DNA from: Acidocella aminolytica 101 = DSM 11237
GTDB taxonomy: Bacteria > Pseudomonadota > Alphaproteobacteria > Acetobacterales > Acetobacteraceae
Reading direction: 5' to 3'
DNA: 64,000 nucleotides
NCBI RefSeq assembly: GCF_900129125.1
Contig: NZ_FQVJ01000002.1
Coordinates: forward strand, 1-64,000
The notes beneath the pieces were generated by a model, which was not told where the DNA came from, searched no databases, and saw only the letters and a list, made by a program, of their open reading frames with translations. A program made the translations under genes and the position numbers. Below are positions 27,077 through 36,811 of this stretch, piece by piece (positions within the stretch are counted from its first letter, which is position 1; each line of letters opens with the position of its first letter).

Positions 27077-27379
27077 GTGAATCTTACACCACGCGAGAAA
27101 GATAAGCTGCTCGTGGCCATGGCCGCGATGGTCGCCCGCAAAAGGCTGGAGCGCGGCGTAAAGCTGAACTACCCGGAAGCCGTGGCACTGATTACGGATT
27201 TTGTGGTGGAAGGCGCGCGCGACGGACGGCGCGTGGCGGAGTTGATGGAAGCGGGCGCGCATGTGATTACGCGAGACCAAGTCATGGAGGGCGTTGCGGA
27301 AATGATTCACGACGTACAGGTAGAAGCCACTTTCCCGGATGGTACCAAGCTTGTCACTGTTCATGAGCCGATCAGATGA
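27077..27379 (+). CDS. ureA: urease subunit gamma
   Basis: Small structural subunit (100 residues) of nickel urease, which hydrolyses urea to ammonia and carbamate. Clear features are the start [22 protein letters not shown] and the end [14 protein letters not shown]. It starts with GTG at 27077 behind a GGGGGGAGA ribosome site, 11 bases after ureD, and overlaps ureB by ATGA. The subunit is intact and of normal length. Ammonia from urea would help an acid-living cell to buffer its cytoplasm. Confidence 0.96.
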
Positions 27380-27684
27380 TTCCAGGCGAGGTGCTGACCC
27401 CGGAGGGGGAGATTGAGCTGAATGCGGGCCTCGAAACAACCACTTTGATTGTTACGAGTACAGGAGACCGGCCGATTCAGGTAGGGAGTCATTATCATTT
27501 TTCTGAAACAAACGCGGCACTCTCGTTTGACCGTGAGGCGGCACAGGGCAAGAGGCTGGATATTGCGGCGGGAACAGCGATTCGGTTTGAGCCGGGGCAG
27601 AGCCGTGAGGTAACTTTGGTGCCTTATCGCGGTGCGCGTAGAGTCTATGGTTTCCGTGGCTTGACCATGGGGGAGATTGACTGA
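27376..27684 (+). CDS. ureB: urease subunit beta
   Basis: Second small urease subunit, 102 residues. It shows the family sequence [30 protein letters not shown] and [10 protein letters not shown]. The ATG overlaps the ureA stop (ATGA) and its own stop overlaps the ureC start (TGATG), so the three subunits are translated as a coupled set. Separate gamma and beta genes are the usual bacterial arrangement, unlike the fused form in Helicobacter. Confidence 0.96.
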
Positions 27685-29390
27685 TGGCCAAAATTTCTCG
27701 TGCAGCTTACGCGGATATGTTTGGCCCCACAGTGGGAGACCGTGTGCGCCTTGCTGATACTGAGCTTTTTGCTGAGGTTGAAAAAGACTTCACGATTTAT
27801 GGCGATGAAGTGAAGTTTGGCGGGGGCAAGGTGATTCGTGATGGCATGGGGCAGTCGCAGATTTGTAATGCCGATGGCGCGGCTGATACGGTTATCACCA
27901 ACGTGCTGATTATCGACCATTGGGGCATTGTGAAGGCCGATGTTGCGATTGTAGCCGGACGGATATCGAAAATCGGCAAGGCCGGAAACCCAGATGTGCA
28001 GCCGGGTGTTGATATTATCATCGGGCCAGGTACGGAGATTATCGCGGGTGAAGGCAAAATTCTGACGGCCGGCGGGATTGATGCACATATCCATTTTATC
28101 TGTCCGCAGCAGATTGAGGAAGCTTTAGCCGCCGGAATCACGACCATGCTGGGCGGCGGCACGGGACCCGCCACTGGAACCGCGGCGACGACGTGCACGC
28201 CAGGACCGTTTCATCTCGCGCGGATGTTGCAGGCCGCTGAGGCTTTTCCAATAAATCTTGCCTTTGCGGGCAAGGGAAATGCCAGCGAGCCCGCGGCGCT
28301 TGAGGAGATGGTGAGGGCGGGTGCATGTGCGTTAAAGCTTCATGAAGACTGGGGAACAACGCCAGCGGCGATTGATACCTGCCTGAATGTCGCGGACAGG
28401 TTCGATATACAGGTAATGATTCATAGCGATACGTTGAATGAAGGCGGGTTTGTTGAAAATACGATCGCCGCTTTCAAAGGCCGTACAATCCACGCTTTCC
28501 ATACTGAAGGGGCGGGTGGCGGTCATGCGCCGGATATCATACGGGTTGCGGGATTGCCGAATGTGTTGCCCAGCTCTACGAATCCCACGCGACCTTACAC
28601 AGTGAATACGCTCGATGAGCATCTCGACATGCTCATGGTTTGTCATCATCTTGACGGTTCGATTCCAGAAGATATTGCGTTTGCGGAATCGCGGATTCGT
28701 AAAGAGACAATCGCTGCCGAGGATATTTTGCAGGATCTCGGGGTGATTTCGATGATTTCCTCAGACAGCCAAGCGATGGGACGGGTTGGCGAGGTCATTA
28801 TACGTTGTTGGCAGACGGCGCATAAAATGAAACTCCAGCGTGGCTCTTTGGCGGGGAGCGGTTTGGCGGATAATGACCGGATTAAGCGTTACATTGCCAA
28901 ATACACAATCAACCCGGCGATTGCTCATGGTCTTTCAGCGCATGTTGGGTCTGTTGAGTGCGGGAAGCTAGCGGATCTTATTTTGTGGAGCCCTGCATTT
29001 TTTGGCGTAAAACCGGATTTGGTGATCAAGGGCGGCTCGATTGCCATGGCGCAGATGGGAGATCCTAACGGGTCTATCCCCACGCCGCAGCCGGTGCATT
29101 ATCGGCCAATGTTTGGAGCTTATGGGAAAGCGCTTGTTGAATCTTCCATTTTGTTTGTGTCCAAGGCGGCGCTGGAAGATCGGATTGATACGAAGTTAGG
29201 ACTAACGCGGCCTTTGGCTGCCGTTGAAAATGTTCGCGGCGGAATTGGCAAGAAATCGATGATCCATAATGACGCAACGCCGGTTATTGAGGTGGACCCG
29301 GAAACCTATGAGGTTCGCGTGGATGGTGAGTTGCTGGTTTGTCAGCCCGCTGAAACACTGCCGATGGCGCAGCGTTATTTTCTGTTCTGA
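27684..29390 (+). CDS. ureC: urease subunit alpha, catalytic
   Basis: Catalytic subunit of 568 residues. All nickel and active-site residues expected from Klebsiella urease are present: HIHFICPQQ (two nickel histidines), K218 in ALKLHED as the carbamylated lysine, the His in MIHSDTL, the His in [13 protein letters not shown]321 in VCHHLD as the general acid, and D361 in SSDSQAMG. The subunit is thus probably able to work if nickel is inserted. It is the last gene of a ureDABC cluster; the usual ureE, ureF and ureG do not follow, and the next gene is nrtR after 280 bases of AT-rich DNA. Confidence 0.97.
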
Positions 29391-29672
29391 GTGCGGGAAC
29401 CATTGAGCAGCGGATTAATCCGCCGCTCAATGGAGTGCTGGACTCAATTCGGCAGTTTGAGGAATTTCAAGAGAAAGTCAAGGATATAAAATCTTAGATA
29501 GAATTTTTAAATATGATTTTCAATTTTAAGTGGCTTGTGCTTTAAATTCTGCTTGAAACTAAAAGTCTGCCCCACCCAATGGGCCAGGAAATGATGAGGC
29601 GATCCTTGGTTATGTCGTGTTTTGGGTGCGATTAGCTTATACGCTCCGCGAGCATCGAGGGTTGTATTGTTC
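29391..29672. other. AT-rich gap after ureC with a long palindrome
   Basis: No gene found. 29401-29416 and 29417-29432 form a 16-bp near-perfect palindrome with one mismatch and no loop; it may be the ureC terminator, although no T-run follows. The remainder (29433-29640) is AT-rich. No trace of ureE, ureF or ureG could be read in any frame. The nrtR promoter must lie towards the end. Confidence 0.5.
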
Positions 29673-30557
29673 ATGGTTGACGGTGTTATTAAGACGGATT
29701 TGATCGCTGTTTTGGTTGCCGTAACAGCTGGGCAGCCGCGTGTTTTGACCATTGAAGAAGGTTCCGCTCTGCCTTCTGGCCCGCTGCAAACAGGGCATAG
29801 AAGCCTGCAATCTGGCCTGCGAGCATGGGTTGAGCAGCAAACCCACCATCCGTTGGGTTATGTCGAGCAGTTATATACATTCGCAGACCAGCAGCCGGGA
29901 GCCAGGCGGAGCATTTCCATTTCTTATCTCGGGTTGAGCCGCGAAGGTGCGGCGGAATATCCGGGCGCCGCGTGGCATGGTTGGTATGAGTACTTCCCGT
30001 GGGAAGATACACGCACTGATCGCCCTTGTCTGGCGCCTATAATGGAGGCGTTGGAAGGATGGGCTGGGGGAGCGCCTAGTAAACGGGCCAGGGTGGCCGG
30101 GCTATTAGGCAAGGACGGGCAAGGGTGGAATGAAGATCTTGTCTTGCCGAGATATGAGTTGCTTTGGGAAGCAGGGTTGGTGCCCGAGGCGCAGCGCAAA
30201 GAGCCAACAACGGAAGGGTGGTTGGCGCCAGGGCTAGAAATGACGCATGACCACCGCCGGATTCTGGCAACGGCGATCGCCCGTTTACGATCCAAGATTA
30301 AATACCGGCCTGTTGTGTTTGAGCTTTTGCCACGTGAGTTCACTCTGTTGGACCTACAGCAAACAATGGAGGCAATTGCGGGCAGGACTTTCCACAAGCC
30401 TAATTTCAGACGCTTTATCGAGCAGTCAGATCTCGTGGAGGAAACCGGGCGGCTTGCCTCAGGCTTGGCGGGGCGGCCAGCTAAGTTGTTCAGGTTCAGA
30501 CCCGCGGTTTTGGCCGAACGCAGCTTTACCGGGACCAAACTACCAATTGTAAAATAA
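29673..30557 (+). CDS. nrtR: NrtR, Nudix-related regulator of NAD synthesis
   Basis: Transcription repressor of 294 residues with an N-terminal Nudix-like domain and a C-terminal winged helix. The stretch GYVEQLYTFAD followed by ISISYLGL is a hallmark of NrtR proteins. The Nudix box, expected just before it, reads LPSGPLQTGHRSLQSGLRAWVEQQT and lacks the Glu residues that bind metal, so hydrolase activity is probably lost and ligand sensing retained; ADP-ribose is the ligand known for NrtR. The DNA-binding half includes FTLLDLQQTMEAIAGRTFHKPNFRR. An in-frame ATG at 29622 exists; 29673 gives the family start. It lies 80 bases before nadA, with two palindromes in the gap. Confidence 0.9.
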   Translation: MVDGVIKTDLIAVLVAVTAGQPRVLTIEEGSALPSGPLQTGHRSLQSGLRAWVEQQTHHPLGYVEQLYTFADQQPGARRSISISYLGLSREGAAEYPGAAWHGWYEYFPWEDTRTDRPCLAPIMEALEGWAGGAPSKRARVAGLLGKDGQGWNEDLVLPRYELLWEAGLVPEAQRKEPTTEGWLAPGLEMTHDHRRILATAIARLRSKIKYRPVVFELLPREFTLLDLQQTMEAIAGRTFHKPNFRRFIEQSDLVEETGRLASGLAGRPAKLFRFRPAVLAERSFTGTKLPIVK

Positions 30558-30570
30558 ATGACTTGATTCC

Positions 30571-30591
30571 TTATACTCTCTCTGAGTATAA
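30571..30591 (+). promoter_or_regulatory. NrtR operator candidate, site 1
   Basis: TTATACTC at 30571-30578 and GAGTATAA at 30584-30591 form a perfect 8-bp inverted repeat with a 5-base spacer (TCTCT). It lies in the nrtR-nadA gap and is repeated 33 bases downstream with the same arms. Assignment to NrtR is inferred from position. Confidence 0.8.
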
Positions 30592-30603
30592 AAACTGCTC
30601 AGA

Positions 30604-30624
30604 TTATACTCGTTTTGAGTATAA
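30604..30624 (+). promoter_or_regulatory. NrtR operator candidate, site 2
   Basis: Second copy of the palindrome: TTATACTC at 30604-30611 and GAGTATAA at 30617-30624, spacer GTTTT. Start-to-start distance to site 1 is 33 bases, about three helical turns, so two dimers would bind the same DNA face. It ends three bases before the nadA ribosome site (GGAG at 30627-30630), ideal for repression. Confidence 0.8.
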
Positions 30625-30637
30625 ATGGAGAATGCTT

Positions 30638-31600
30638 ATGCCGCTAGCTCAGCTTTTTGATCGCGTTTCCCGTGTTATTCCGCCGGCTGAGTGGGCGGTC
30701 ATGGAGGAGGATGCACGGATAATTCTTGAACTCAAGAAAAGCCGGAATGCGGTTATTCTTGCGCATAATTATCAAACGCCGGAAATTTTCCATGGCGTTG
30801 CGGACATTGTTGGGGACAGCTTGGCCCTGGCGCGTGAGGCGCAACATACCGATGCCGACGTGATTCTCTTGGCGGGCGTGCATTTCATGGCTGAGACAGC
30901 CAAGTTGATGAATCCTGACAAGGTTGTGCTGATACCTGATGCGGCGGCGGGGTGCTCGCTTGCTGAATCCATCACCTCTGAAGACGTCGCTTTGCTGCGC
31001 CAGAAATATCCTGACCGCCCGGTAGTGGCTTATGTGAATACCTCGGCGGCCGTGAAGGCCATGAGTGATGTCTGTTGTACGTCAGGCAATGCAAAGGTTG
31101 TTGTGGAATCTCTAGGGGTTCCTGAAGTGATAATGCTGCCGGATGAGTTCCTTGCGCAAAATGTCGCGGCGCAGACAGATGTCAAAATCATTGCCTGGAA
31201 AGGGCATTGCGAGGTTCATGAGCGGTTCACGCCGGATGATATCTTGTCGCTGCGACAGCAACATCCTGGTGTTGTGGTGCTGGCGCATCCTGAGTGCCCG
31301 CCCGAGGTTGTCGCGGTGTCTGATTTTTCTGGCTCCACGGCGGTTATGGCGAATTATGTGAAGGACCTTAAGCCTGCTCGTGTTGCGTTGATTACTGAAT
31401 GCTCGATGAGCGATAATGTCGCGCAATCCAACCCAGGGACAGAGTTTGTACGCCCCTGCAATCTTTGCCCGCATATGAAGCGGATTACTTTATCGAATAT
31501 CCGCAAAGCTCTCGAAGAAATGCAGACAAGCGTGGAGATTCCCGCCGAGTTGTTTGCGCCTGCGCGGCGTTCAGTTGAGAGGATGCTGGCCGTCAAATGA
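30638..31600 (+). CDS. nadA: quinolinate synthase
   Basis: [4Fe-4S] enzyme of 320 residues that condenses iminoaspartate with dihydroxyacetone phosphate to quinolinate. The cluster cysteines are in DVCCTSGNA, WKGHCEVH and RPCNLCPHMKR; substrate-binding AHNYQTPEI and HPECPPEV are also present. The frame is open from 30563, but this would run through the operators. The ATG at 30638 with GGAG seven bases before it is the start. First gene of nadABC; overlaps nadB by ATGA. The oxygen-sensitive cluster probably depends on carriers such as ApbC. Confidence 0.95.
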   Translation: MPLAQLFDRVSRVIPPAEWAVMEEDARIILELKKSRNAVILAHNYQTPEIFHGVADIVGDSLALAREAQHTDADVILLAGVHFMAETAKLMNPDKVVLIPDAAAGCSLAESITSEDVALLRQKYPDRPVVAYVNTSAAVKAMSDVCCTSGNAKVVVESLGVPEVIMLPDEFLAQNVAAQTDVKIIAWKGHCEVHERFTPDDILSLRQQHPGVVVLAHPECPPEVVAVSDFSGSTAVMANYVKDLKPARVALITECSMSDNVAQSNPGTEFVRPCNLCPHMKRITLSNIRKALEEMQTSVEIPAELFAPARRSVERMLAVK

Positions 31601-32997
31601 TCATTATCGGTGGTGGCGTCGCGGGATTGATGGCCGCTCTTGCTGCGGCGCCTCACCCTGTAACACTTGTGAATCCAACTACTCTTGGACCGGGCGCCGC
31701 GAGTTGGCTGTCACAAGGTGGCATTGCGGCAGCTGTGGGCGATGATGATGACGTATCCCTGCATATTAAAGACACGTTGGAGGCAGGCGCCGGGCTGTGT
31801 AACCCTGATGTTGTCGCGCGGATAATTTCCGCTGGCCCGGCCGTAATAGACACGCTTCTTGCTTATGGCGTGACGTTTGACCGTACCGGAAGCGGTGCTC
31901 GAGCTCTGGGACTGGAGGCAGCTCATTCACGTAGGCGTATTCTTCATGGTGGTGGTGATAGAACCGGGGCCACCATCATGAAAGCTCTAATTGAAAAAGT
32001 GCAGCGGTGTCCATCCATCAATATCATAAAGGCTTCTGCTGAGCGGATATTTGTTGATGATAACGGTGTTTCAGGAATTCAGATTCAGCGCGATGGCCAC
32101 AGGCTGAGTTTGAAGACTGACCGGGTTTTGCTTGCCACCGGGGGAATCGGTGGGCTTTTCCGGGATACGACCAATCCGCCTTCTGCCGTGGGGCAAGGGC
32201 TGATTCTTGCGATGGAAGCAGGCGCGGAATTTAAAGATTTGGAGTTTGTCCAGTTTCATCCGACGGCTCTTGCAGTTAAAGAGTCTTCTTTGCCCCTGGT
32301 GTCTGAGGCAGTGCGTGGCGAAGGAGCCAGACTGGTTGATGAGGCTGGAAACTACTTCATGAACGGCAAGGATCTGGCGCCCCGCGATGTTGTTGCGCGC
32401 CATGTGTTTCTGCATAGAGCGAATGGTCATCAGACGTTTTTGGATATCAGTGGTTTTTCAGAAAGGTTTTCAGATCGGTTTCCGTCAATCAGTGCCGCTT
32501 GCAATAACGCTGATATAGATTTGTCATCTCATCTTATACCGGTAAAGCCGGCAGCTCATTATCACATGGGTGGGGTTAAGGTTGATGAGATGGGGCGGAC
32601 GAACATAGACGGGCTTTTTGCGGCGGGAGAGGTGGCTTGCACGGGGCTGCATGGGGCAAATCGTTTGGCCAGCAACTCGTTGCTTGAGGCTGTTGTTTGC
32701 GGACAAGTTTCGGGACGCTTTATGGCGGCGCAGGGTGCAAGACGGACTGGTGCTTTGCAAGAGATTACGTTTCCGGCAAAAGCGGACGCAACGGAAGTCA
32801 GAGATATTATGTCGGATTACTGTGGTGTTTTGCGGTCTGGAAAAGCTCTGGAAATAGCGTCTGGTCTGCTGGAAGCATTGGCGATAAATAATCCTGCAGC
32901 TGCTTTGTCTCTTAAGATCGTTGAAGCTGCTCTGGAGAGAAAAGACTCTGTTGGTTCACATATGAGAGTTGAATTCTCGATGGAAAAGGCAGCCTAA
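31597..32997 (+). CDS. nadB: L-aspartate oxidase
   Basis: FAD enzyme of 466 residues that oxidises L-aspartate to iminoaspartate for nadA. It starts at once with the dinucleotide motif IIIGGGVAGLMAAL and has [49 protein letters not shown] and GANRLASNSLLEA. The length is shorter than the roughly 540 residues of the E. coli enzyme, chiefly at the C-terminus, where the usual SRG-x-H motif reads SVGSHMRVEF. Catalytic parts seem intact. ATGA overlap with nadA. The family shares its fold with SdhA, but the small size and context leave no doubt. Confidence 0.95.
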   Translation: MIIIGGGVAGLMAALAAAPHPVTLVNPTTLGPGAASWLSQGGIAAAVGDDDDVSLHIKDTLEAGAGLCNPDVVARIISAGPAVIDTLLAYGVTFDRTGSGARALGLEAAHSRRRILHGGGDRTGATIMKALIEKVQRCPSINIIKASAERIFVDDNGVSGIQIQRDGHRLSLKTDRVLLATGGIGGLFRDTTNPPSAVGQGLILAMEAGAEFKDLEFVQFHPTALAVKESSLPLVSEAVRGEGARLVDEAGNYFMNGKDLAPRDVVARHVFLHRANGHQTFLDISGFSERFSDRFPSISAACNNADIDLSSHLIPVKPAAHYHMGGVKVDEMGRTNIDGLFAAGEVACTGLHGANRLASNSLLEAVVCGQVSGRFMAAQGARRTGALQEITFPAKADATEVRDIMSDYCGVLRSGKALEIASGLLEALAINNPAAALSLKIVEAALERKDSVGSHMRVEFSMEKAA

Positions 32998-32998
32998 T

Positions 32999-33859
32999 AT
33001 GTCTAAAATTCCTTTGCCCGCCCTGCCGGATGTTATGATTGAGCCGGTCATTCGCATGGCTCTTCTTGAAGATTTGGGAAGGGCTGGGGATATTACCTCG
33101 GACTCAATTATTGGGCCGGACATTTGTACGCGCGTTGTTTTTTCTTCCAGAGAATATGGTGTGGTTTCTGGTTTAGATTTTGCGCGCCTAGCATTTTCTC
33201 TCATAGACCAGCGGGTTAAGTTTGAACCTGTGCTGACTGACGGTGAGGATGTCGAGCCAGGAACAGTGTTGGCGGAGGCATCTGGTTCAGCGCGGAGTAT
33301 TCTCACGGCCGAACGCGTGGCTTTGAATTTTTTAGGCCGTTTGTCGGGAATTGCCAGTTCAACCGCAACTATCGCAAAAGCAATCTCGCATACGAAGGCC
33401 AAAATTGCCTGTACACGTAAAACGACGCCGGGTTTACGCTTTGCTGAAAAATATGCGGTGCGGTCAGGCGGTGGAAGCAATCATCGGTTTGGCCTTGATG
33501 ACGCGATTCTGATTAAAGACAACCACATTGCGATTGCGGGTGGCGTTGGTGTGGCAATCTCGCGCGCCAAGAAAATGGCGGGACATCTGATTAAGATTGA
33601 AGTGGAAGTCGATAATCTGCACCAACTAAAAGAAGCGCTGGAATTTCAGCCTGATGCGGTGCTGCTTGATAATATGTCGCCGCAGATGCTTCGTGAGGCT
33701 GTGCGAATGATCGATGGCAGGCTGATAGCTGAAGCCTCAGGCCGGATTAACAAAGATACAGCACCTGCGATTGCAGAGGCTGGGGTTGATATAATTTCCG
33801 CGGGATGGCTGACTCATAGCTCAAAAGTCCTTGATATTGGACTTGATTTTGTCGAATAA
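32999..33859 (+). CDS. nadC: nicotinate-nucleotide pyrophosphorylase (quinolinate phosphoribosyltransferase)
   Basis: Enzyme of 286 residues that converts quinolinate and PRPP into nicotinate mononucleotide. Signature parts are ALLEDLGRAGDITSD, AERVALNFLGRLSGIAS, TRKTTPGLR, KYAVRSGGGSNHRFGL, LIKDNHIAI and EVEVDNLHQ. The upstream ATG at 32969 overlaps nadB too deeply; the ATG at 32999 lies two bases after the nadB stop and is chosen, though a ribosome site is not obvious, so coupling is likely. bioF follows after 26 bases. Confidence 0.95.
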   Translation: MSKIPLPALPDVMIEPVIRMALLEDLGRAGDITSDSIIGPDICTRVVFSSREYGVVSGLDFARLAFSLIDQRVKFEPVLTDGEDVEPGTVLAEASGSARSILTAERVALNFLGRLSGIASSTATIAKAISHTKAKIACTRKTTPGLRFAEKYAVRSGGGSNHRFGLDDAILIKDNHIAIAGGVGVAISRAKKMAGHLIKIEVEVDNLHQLKEALEFQPDAVLLDNMSPQMLREAVRMIDGRLIAEASGRINKDTAPAIAEAGVDIISAGWLTHSSKVLDIGLDFVE

Positions 33860-33885: not shown

Positions 33886-35055
33886 ATGCCAGATCATGAG
33901 TGGTTTTGGGAAAATGCTGTTGCCGGTTTGAAGGCGCAAGGACGCTTTCGGCGTTTACGCCTTTCAGAGCGCTTGGAAGGGGCTCGTATAAGGTTTGATG
34001 GTGGGCCTGAGCTTATTGATTTTTCTTCAAACGACTATCTCGGCCTGTCCCACCATCCGGCCCTTATAAAGGGTGCTCAGGACTATGCTGAGCGTTTTGG
34101 GGCTGGCGCTGGGGCTTCCCGGCTGCTGTCTGGAAATCTGCTGCCGACTGAAAAGATTGAGCGGAAATTAGCCGTTGGGAAGCGTATGGAGGCTGCACTT
34201 GTGTTTGCTACCGGAGCCCAGGCTAATCTTACGTTGTTGCCGGCTATTTTGGATGCGCGTATGCTTGGGGCTGAGCCTTTGGTTTATGCGGACCGGCTTA
34301 ATCATGCCAGTTTAATTCAAGGTTGCATTGGAGCGGGTGTCAGGCAGATACGTTTCCGCCATAACGATCTCAATCATCTTGAGGAACTTCTTAAACGTGA
34401 TGAAGGCCTTTCTCGGCCTCGCTTTATTATCACAGAGTCCGTTTTTAGTATGGATGGTGACGGGCCAGATTTAAAAAAGCTCTCTGAAGTAGCCAAAAAA
34501 TACAATGCTTTTCTCTATATTGACGAAGCGCATGCAACTGGTGTTTTAGGGGAAAGCGGCTTTGGGCTGGCTTGTGGTTTGAAAAATGCGCTTGTCATGG
34601 GCACTTTTAGCAAAGGGTTGGGTGGGTTTGGCGCTTATGCGGTTTGTTCGGATAAGCTAAGAAAATATCTAATCAATCGGTGTGGTGGTTTGATATACAC
34701 CACGTTTCTGCCTCCGGCGGTTTTGGGGACGATGAATGCAGCGCTGGATCTTATTCCTTTTATGGACAAGCAGCGGGCCTATCTAGCGGATTTAGGAAGT
34801 TTTCTGAGGCTGCGTCTTAACGCGGCGGGGTTGGATACCGGGGCGTCAACAACACAGATTGTGCCGCTGGTTTTGGGCAAGGAAGAGGCGGTTTTATCTT
34901 TGTCGGCACGGTTGGAGGTGGAGGGTTTCTGCGCTGTTGCCATTCGTCCGCCAACGGTTCCGGCGGGAACAAGCCGCCTTCGGTTGGCTTTGTCTGTTTT
35001 GCATAAAAAGGAAGATGTTGCCGCGTTGGCAGAAGCTATTATTGGTAATGTTTGA
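33886..35055 (+). CDS. bioF: 8-amino-7-oxononanoate synthase
   Basis: PLP enzyme of 389 residues that joins pimeloyl-ACP and alanine in biotin synthesis. DFSSNDYLGLSHHP, GAGASRLLSGN, YIDEAHATGVLGESG and the PLP lysine in GTFSKGLGGFGAY identify the alpha-oxoamine synthase family; the neighbouring bioC supports BioF over KBL or ALAS. It lies 26 bases after nadC on the same strand without an evident terminator, so it is probably carried on the NAD transcript. The stop overlaps the bioC start as TGATG. No bioA, bioB or bioD is in the window. Confidence 0.93.
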   Translation: MPDHEWFWENAVAGLKAQGRFRRLRLSERLEGARIRFDGGPELIDFSSNDYLGLSHHPALIKGAQDYAERFGAGAGASRLLSGNLLPTEKIERKLAVGKRMEAALVFATGAQANLTLLPAILDARMLGAEPLVYADRLNHASLIQGCIGAGVRQIRFRHNDLNHLEELLKRDEGLSRPRFIITESVFSMDGDGPDLKKLSEVAKKYNAFLYIDEAHATGVLGESGFGLACGLKNALVMGTFSKGLGGFGAYAVCSDKLRKYLINRCGGLIYTTFLPPAVLGTMNAALDLIPFMDKQRAYLADLGSFLRLRLNAAGLDTGASTTQIVPLVLGKEEAVLSLSARLEVEGFCAVAIRPPTVPAGTSRLRLALSVLHKKEDVAALAEAIIGNV

Positions 35056-35783
35056 TGAGTGCTGTTGAGAAAAGCTTTTCTTCTGCGGCTGTTAACTATG
35101 ATAAGGCTGCGCGTGTTCAGCCTATAGTTGCTGATGTTTTAGTTAAAAAATTAAACGGTTTGCCTTCACGAATTTTGGAAGTTGGCTGCGGAACAGGTGG
35201 GCTCAGTGTGCATCTGGTAAAAAAATTTCAAGGGTCTGAGATTGTTTTGTCTGACATTTCAATCGAGATGTTGAGCGTTTGTCGTCATCGTATTGGGGGA
35301 CGGGCTGAGTTTCGACAGATGGATGGGGAGTTCCCGGATCGAAGTCTGGGGAGGTTTGATCTTATTGTGTCCAGCCTATGCATGCAATGGTTTGGCGATT
35401 TGTCGGCGGCTGTTGGGCGATTGGTTGAGATGTTACGCCCAGGTGGTAGGCTGGTTTTTTCAACTCTTGGAAAGCGAAATTTCAAAGAATGGAAGATTCT
35501 ATCAGAGCAGTTTGGTTTTTGTTCTGGTTTGCATCATTATCCTGATCCAGATCATTTCCCTTGGCCTTCTGGAGGGCAGGGGGAGTTTGAGGAGATGTTT
35601 TTAAAAGAGCGCCACGCTAGTGGCGCGGCGTTTCTGAAGTCATTGAAGCTGATTGGAGCGGCAACGCCGCGTGCTGACTACAAACCGATAACTTCATCCG
35701 TTATGAAAAATCTATTGAAGGTCACGGAAAACGGATTTTCCGTGACCTATCATGTTCTCTATGGTGATTTTAGGGTTGATTAG
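35055..35783 (+). CDS. bioC: malonyl-ACP O-methyltransferase BioC
   Basis: SAM-dependent methyltransferase of 242 residues that caps malonyl-ACP so that the fatty-acid enzymes can build the pimeloyl chain of biotin. It has KSFSSAAVNYDKAARVQ at the start (typical of BioC), the SAM loop ILEVGCGTGGLS, and VSSLCMQWFGD followed by LRPGGRLVFSTLG. The partner esterase (BioH, BioG or similar) is not in the window. A TTG at 35052 is also possible, but ATG at 35055 directly overlaps the bioF stop. The local base composition is AT-rich compared with the flanks (23 G/C of 60 in 35041-35100). The stop overlaps that of the opposing gene. Confidence 0.9.
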   Translation: MSAVEKSFSSAAVNYDKAARVQPIVADVLVKKLNGLPSRILEVGCGTGGLSVHLVKKFQGSEIVLSDISIEMLSVCRHRIGGRAEFRQMDGEFPDRSLGRFDLIVSSLCMQWFGDLSAAVGRLVEMLRPGGRLVFSTLGKRNFKEWKILSEQFGFCSGLHHYPDPDHFPWPSGGQGEFEEMFLKERHASGAAFLKSLKLIGAATPRADYKPITSSVMKNLLKVTENGFSVTYHVLYGDFRVD

Positions 35784-36811
35784 CGGCCTTCAAATCCAGT
35801 GAGAACATTTACGGCATTTATGCCAATTTCCGCGACTGCGTAGCCGCCTTCCATAACAAAGAGCGTTGGCTTGCCGAGGGTTTTGACTTTCTCTCCCATG
35901 GCTGAAAAATGCTCATGTTCCAGCTTGAATTGCGAAATAGGGTCTTTTTTGTAGGTGTCCACACCAAGGGAAACAACGACAATGTCGGGGCTAAATTTTA
36001 TGATCCGTTTTAGGCCTACATCTAATGCCGCTGACCATTTATCCCAGGTTGTTCCCCAGGGAAGGGGGAAATTGAGGTTGTAACCTTCGCCTTTTCCAAG
36101 GCCAAATTCATCTGCGAATCCAAGCATATAAGGAAATTCTTGATCAGGATCGCCATGCAAGGAGATAAAGAGAACATCGTCTCTGTTGTAGAAAATGTCT
36201 TGTGTGCCGTTGCCGTGGTGGTAGTCGACATCGAGAATGGCAATACGCTTCGCGCCGTCGTCGAGAAGTTTTTGTGTTGCGATAGCGGCGTTGTTTAAAA
36301 AGCAATAGCCACCAAACTGACTCGTTGAGGCATGATGCCCTGGCGGACGGCAAAGAGAAAAGACGGCGGATTCGCCTTCATTTATCAATTTTGCGCCGGT
36401 TAAAGCGACATCTGCAGAGGATTTGATGGCTTGCCAGCTTGTGGCTGTTATAGGCGTTCCGCAATCAAAGCTGTAAAAGCCTAGTTTACCGTCTATTTCC
36501 CTTGGGACGCGGTCTGTTCTCATGCCGCGTGCTGGCCAGGTATAGGGGTAGGCGGCGCCGCTGCGGTCGCTGGCCAGCCATTCAGCATGGGCGGTTTTCA
36601 GGCAATCCACCATGCCGGGTGTGTGTATGCGGGTAATTTGTTCCAGGGAGAAAGCTTCAGGCGGCAAGACCGGTCCAAGCTTAACGTCTTCAACCCTATC
36701 CAGAATAAGCTGCGCCCGCTCTGGTTTCTCAAAGGCTTCGCTAAATTCGCCTAAGATTAACTCGCCGGGGCTACGATGCAATTCATGGTCGGGGGAGAAG
36801 ATTGTTTTCAT
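35780..36811 (-). CDS. histone-deacetylase-family amidohydrolase (acetylpolyamine amidohydrolase-like)
   Basis: Zinc deacetylase of 343 residues. RPPGHHAS carries the catalytic His pair, DVDYHHGNGTQ the zinc-binding Asp and His, and SLGVDTYKKDP the second zinc Asp; the C-terminal EGGYAV is also conserved. The loop after residue 85 (YPYTWPARGMRTDR) is typical of bacterial acetylpolyamine amidohydrolases and related class II enzymes, so polyamine or acetyl-lysine substrates are likely. It faces the bioC gene with overlapping stop codons and is apparently a single-gene unit. No histone-like role is implied. Confidence 0.88.
   Translation of the reverse strand: MKTIFSPDHELHRSPGELILGEFSEAFEKPERAQLILDRVEDVKLGPVLPPEAFSLEQITRIHTPGMVDCLKTAHAEWLASDRSGAAYPYTWPARGMRTDRVPREIDGKLGFYSFDCGTPITATSWQAIKSSADVALTGAKLINEGESAVFSLCRPPGHHASTSQFGGYCFLNNAAIATQKLLDDGAKRIAILDVDYHHGNGTQDIFYNRDDVLFISLHGDPDQEFPYMLGFADEFGLGKGEGYNLNFPLPWGTTWDKWSAALDVGLKRIIKFSPDIVVVSLGVDTYKKDPISQFKLEHEHFSAMGEKVKTLGKPTLFVMEGGYAVAEIGINAVNVLTGFEGR

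Follow-up and report, generated by a model that had tools for sequence, protein, structure and literature searches.

NadQ (COG4111) is named among the repressors of NAD genes (PMC12421817). PMC5343134 presents NadQ as a novel regulator of alpha- and betaproteobacteria, with a winged helix homologous to that of NrtR, an N-terminal domain described as dissimilar to that of NrtR, and an effector not assigned in that paper. Its core target is given there as nadABC and its consensus as ttATRCTCannntGAGYATaa. NrtR is likewise a repressor of NAD genes that acts at palindromes, and its N-terminal NUDIX domain (PF00293 or COG1051) is termed invariant among NrtR homologues in the account of PMC6800001. 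A further relative, the NrtR-family sugar regulator AraR of Bacteroides, is described as a regulator of arabinose utilisation (PMC4666351) and was crystallised with L-arabinose, according to the title of the entry. Here, a 64,000-nucleotide stretch of Acidocella aminolytica 101 = DSM 11237 (contig NZ_FQVJ01000002.1, positions 1 to 64,000; hereafter, the window) is described in which two palindromes, O1 and O2, separate a nadQ gene from nadA. These palindromes very probably form a NadQ operator pair controlling nadABC.

The locus resembles the NadQ regulon of PMC5343134 in its orthologous regulator, its motif, the position of nadQ beside nadABC and the nadABC target itself. The evidence requires no difference from that regulon, although the relatives examined show no counterpart of the possible weak site before nadQ. 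The locus is thus most likely a member of the already known NadQ-nadABC regulon and an ordinary gene-control site, and the operator pair opens no long-standing question. In contrast to AraR, its context is NAD synthesis.

The palindrome pair upstream of nadA

O1, 30571..30591, no strand assigned: NadQ-type palindrome TTATACTC-TCTCT-GAGTATAA in the spacer of a putative promoter, matching 16 of 16 consensus arm positions.
O2, 30604..30624, no strand assigned: NadQ-type palindrome TTATACTC-GTTTT-GAGTATAA in the putative nadA leader, just 5' of the ribosome site, matching 16 of 16 arm positions.

Both palindromes have exact 8-bp arms in the pattern TTATACTC-N5-GAGTATAA. The original prediction had described two identical-armed palindromes starting 33 bases apart, and this is what the coordinates give. 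Its wording of three helical turns was close, as 33 bp corresponds to 3.14 turns at 10.5 bp per turn. O2 ends two bases 5' of the GGAG (30627-30630) that precedes the nadA ATG at 30638. Beyond the arms, the t of the consensus spacer is present in both palindromes and the a in neither.

The pattern is rare in its surroundings. With up to three mismatches allowed, it matches twice in the window against 0.04 expected, and none of 100 dinucleotide shuffles reached two matches. Across the genome (3,964,820 bases), O1 and O2 are the sole exact matches, joined by two more with three mismatches; the same pattern read backwards, serving as the control, gives five matches per strand. The perfect arms and the 33-bp spacing are the Acidocella genome's own version of the NadQ operator.

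Identity of the regulator

nadQ, 29673..30557, + strand: NAD-biosynthesis repressor of the COG4111/NadQ family, with a Nudix-like N-terminal domain and a C-terminal NrtR-type winged helix.

The original prediction had called this gene nrtR, an assignment that was not borne out. The product matches A. tumefaciens (Agrobacterium) NadQ along its whole length, whereas its sequence match to NrtR is confined to residues 189-282. No match to the NUDIX Pfam domain (PF00293) was obtained at E up to 0.001, and the NCBIfam NrtR equivalog NF050029 reached 57.5 bits against a cut-off of 400, covering residues 204-293 of the 311-aa frame. An NrtR identity was therefore rejected on Pfam, NCBIfam, PDB sequence and fold comparison. 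As judged from its sequence, the regulator belongs to COG4111/NadQ as an end-to-end orthologue of Agrobacterium NadQ, and it is the only PF21906 match in the Acidocella genome. Despite the absent NUDIX Pfam match, its fold is Nudix-like. NadQ is reportedly both Nudix-like and ATP-responsive, as the title of work by Minazzato et al. in 2022 puts it, which fits this fold comparison.

The identity of the regulator also bears on the signal. NrtR responds to ADP-ribose, and release of the DNA by ADP-ribose had been carried over from NrtR to this locus. The effector of NadQ is different, going by titles: those of PDB entries 7q91-7q94 indicate structures of A. tumefaciens NadQ with ATP, NAD and DNA. 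The annotation is settled accordingly, with the gene named nadQ rather than nrtR and with ATP/NAD, not ADP-ribose, as the expected signal. The original prediction thus read the pattern accurately and came close in function, in that the palindromes are supported as operators of the adjacent regulator controlling nadABC, but it took the regulator and the signal molecule from a sister family. A motif can be called correctly and still bring the wrong effector with it if one DNA-binding domain is common to two regulator families.

Distribution of the motif

To count as a site, a sequence had to match 13 or more of the 16 arm positions and 10 or more of the 12 core positions. Related loci comprised the best 80 of 141 confirmed relatives. 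A second set came from 80 genomes of the window's family, 34 of them with NadQ, from which 30 loci were returned, the window being one. The two sets overlap in part, and L098 repeats L008.

Among the related loci, 74 of 80 carry the site (0 of 80 in the reversed-sequence control). The gene beside nadQ is nadA in 72 and nadC in one, and the site is present in all 73 loci with a nad neighbour versus one of the seven without. Six loci (L010, L012, L025, L035, L048 and L053) have neither a site nor a nad gene in the stretch examined. The family sample behaves in the same way, with the site in 20 of 20 loci that have a nad neighbour (window included) and in none of the 10 that do not; the reversed control scored once in 30 (L097). 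Of the 10 genomes in which nadQ is unlinked to nad genes, eight carry a single strict motif at another place, which in all eight stands directly before nadA.

A broader sample of 144 genomes of the class held 39 NadQ-positive genomes, including one partial match (G056), and 105 NadQ-negative ones. The strict motif occurs in 29 of the former and four of the latter (Fisher p 8e-18, uncorrected for relatedness), and the pattern read backwards in two of all 144. A search for the motif before nadA in relatives had been proposed earlier, with its absence as the outcome that would speak against an operator. Its presence at every nad-linked locus examined, together with the comparison across the class, answers that objection in favour of the operator.

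Two of these loci stand apart. At L083:3408-3428 (Pseudogemmobacter humi), a site lies directly after nadQ while nadA, nadB and nadC were not found in the stretch examined, and the site therefore suggests another target gene in this organism. At L008:2501-3475, on a metagenome contig, the frame that matches NadQ is interrupted by one stop codon.

Promoter context and proposed mechanism

Putative nadA promoter, 30563..30592, + strand: -35-like TTGATT at 30563-30568, 18-bp spacer, -10-like TATAAA at 30587-30592, read from the sequence.

In this arrangement, O1 would fill the promoter spacer and overlap the -10 element. The usual distance from -10 to +1 puts the start of O2 at about +6. To count promoter distances in other loci, O1 was accepted from 12 of 16 arm positions, which applies to 16 of the 78 two-site loci, and L098 was left out as a repeat of L008. 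In 74 of these 78 loci a TTGA starts no more than 16 bp 5' of O1; for O2 the number is six, and about 2.5 would be expected.

NadQ, the product of the gene immediately 5', would bind as a dimer at each palindrome, presumably with one dimer per palindrome. With O1 between -35 and -10 and O2 just past the expected transcription start, bound NadQ would block RNA polymerase and keep nadABC off. The nucleotide state, through ATP and/or NAD in the Nudix-like domain, would set the affinity of NadQ for DNA, provided that the Acidocella protein behaves as its Agrobacterium orthologue. For the family, repression and a response to nucleotides have been reported; by analogy, both are predicted for the Acidocella protein.

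Several observations weigh against this account. Two of the 10 genomes with unlinked nadQ have no strict motif anywhere in a genome scan. Within the class, the strict motif is missing from 10 of the 39 NadQ-positive genomes, and the four NadQ-negative genomes that carry it are G027, G040, G057 and G090. Around the promoter, single-site loci have a TTGA near the site in only four of 14 cases, and of the five closest relatives just L007 has one before O1; it is lacking in L005, L006, L096 and L097, the first three of which read TTGC. The best -10 match reaches three of six positions in 48 of 75 loci, and a generic scan of 29380-30720 for sigma-70 promoters and terminators found none. Given the poor -10 boxes and the empty scan, the placement of the promoter is soft.

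Alternative explanations and operator spacing

Under one alternative, the palindromes would serve a genuine NrtR, which lets go of DNA when it binds ADP-ribose. The Acidocella regulator has its C-terminal winged helix and its overall fold in common with NrtR, which also represses NAD genes at palindromes, but the full-length match to NadQ, the absent NUDIX match and the score far under the NrtR cut-off set it apart. The motif points the same way: it is the published NadQ consensus (PMC5343134), and the NrtR motifs of Mycobacterium and Streptococcus, the two cases compared, differ from O1 and O2 (PMC6800001). An NrtR operator pair is accordingly very improbable. Still less credible is the idea that the palindromes work at the RNA level, as hairpins of the nadA leader that might, for example, mask the ribosome site. 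Each palindrome alone does fold, with seven pairs at -7.3 and -6.7 kcal/mol, far under shuffled sequences, and O2 sits just 5' of GGAG. However, such folding is expected of any DNA palindrome, and O2 in its context is unexceptional (z -1.66, with 15 of 200 shuffles as good). O1 lies inside the putative promoter, 5' of the transcription start. The arms in many relatives no longer fully pair (e.g. ATATGCTC...GAGAATAT), yet they stay near the consensus, and the motif tracks NadQ across genomes. An RNA hairpin as the main function was rejected after the folding test.

A further proposal adds to the NadQ reading rather than competing with it. The original prediction held that the 33-bp spacing lets two dimers bind the same face of the DNA; in its strong form, binding would be cooperative and phasing essential. 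Spacing was compared in 118 loci (window included), 69 of which hold sites less than 120 bp apart, giving 64 distinct pairs. The near-integral 3.14 turns in the window, the prevalence of a 34-bp spacing (28 of 64 pairs) and the R of 0.44 over all 64 pairs, which would mean phasing if the pairs were independent, favour the idea. That R is read as shared descent and not as a rule, because so many of the pairs are near-identical 34-bp ones, 28 of them a single arrangement. The second mode, at 28 bp (12 of 64), sits 0.57 turn from 34 bp; spacings range from 23 to 90 bp, and helical phasing is absent among the 17 distinct values (Rayleigh p about 0.30). Moreover, 14 of 92 site-bearing loci have a single site even at the relaxed threshold. 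A fixed three-turn phasing is thus unsupported as a rule, the same-face spacing is not conserved, and essential, cooperative phasing appears unlikely.

For the NadQ operator pair, a link to the promoter recurs across loci. Of the 75 loci with a -35-like TTGA before O1, 64 have O2 at 38-41 bp from the start of the TTGA (41 bp in the window), and in those 64 loci O1 sits 5, 8 or 10 bp after that start. On a rather doubtful reading, the 34- and 28-bp spacings would be two ways of keeping O2 fixed near the transcription start.

Further candidate sites

O3, 29637..29657, no strand assigned: possible weaker third site, TTATACGC-TCCGC-GAGCATCG, with 13 of 16 arm positions matched; the nadQ ATG follows 16 bp after its end.

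Within the window only O1 and O2 match better than O3, which could mediate autoregulation of nadQ in the Acidocella genome. It is a weak site; the genome contains 12 core matches with a single mismatch, O3 among them. No site above 11 of 16 was found in up to 300 bp before nadQ in the 80 relatives, and no O3-like site was found before nadQ in the same-genus genome G210. In a search for a wider regulon, ATRCTC-N5-GAGYAT with at most two mismatches has 283 matches per strand in the genome (G000) against 109 for the reversed pattern (2.6 times), an excess that may reflect base-composition bias or additional weak sites. The one-mismatch core match L087 falls inside a long open reading frame (ORF; 2691-1336, minus strand), and no position in the 3774-base nadE stretch (L092) scores more than 10 of 16.

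A more elaborate scheme, in which NadQ control follows a promoter-anchored two-operator plan and the weak third site before nadQ adds autoregulation or a loop of ~0.95 kb in the Acidocella genome, is offered as a tentative and rather doubtful extension. Against a promoter-anchored plan stand the composition of the sample, which is mostly rhizobia (45 of 75 loci share the 5/34 arrangement), and the eight of 75 loci in which TTGA and O2 are instead 65-100 bp apart.

Genes of the locus

nadA, 30638..31600, + strand: quinolinate synthase (PF02445, 1.5e-110; NF006878, 354 bits, cut-off 294), with GGAG at 30627-30630.
nadB, 31597..32997, + strand: L-aspartate oxidase (NF005701, 583.6 bits, cut-off 528), its ATG overlapping the nadA stop.
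nadC, 32999..33859, + strand: nicotinate-nucleotide diphosphorylase (carboxylating) (TIGR00078, 314.4 bits, cut-off 198.4).

The order in the window is nadQ-O1-O2-nadA-nadB-nadC, with the nadABC genes overlapping or one base apart. The ORF list offers an alternative nadA reading from a TTG start at 30563, which would extend across both palindromes; the ATG at 30638 fits better.

Genes for the urease gamma, beta and alpha subunits occupy 27077-29390, directly 5' of nadQ. On the other side, right 3' of nadC, 33886-35783 holds a bioF-like gene (TIGR00858, 400.2 bits, cut-off 426.45) and a bioC-like gene (TIGR02072, 155 bits, cut-off 184.95), both below cut-off. Given their position right after nadC, these biotin genes may share a NadQ-controlled transcript with it; bioF- and bioC-like genes were not found in the 4.3 kb 3' of nadC in G210. 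The minus-strand gene at 35780-36811 encodes a histone-deacetylase-domain protein (PF00850, 1.6e-70); this gene and the bioC-like gene overlap at their ends by 4 bp.
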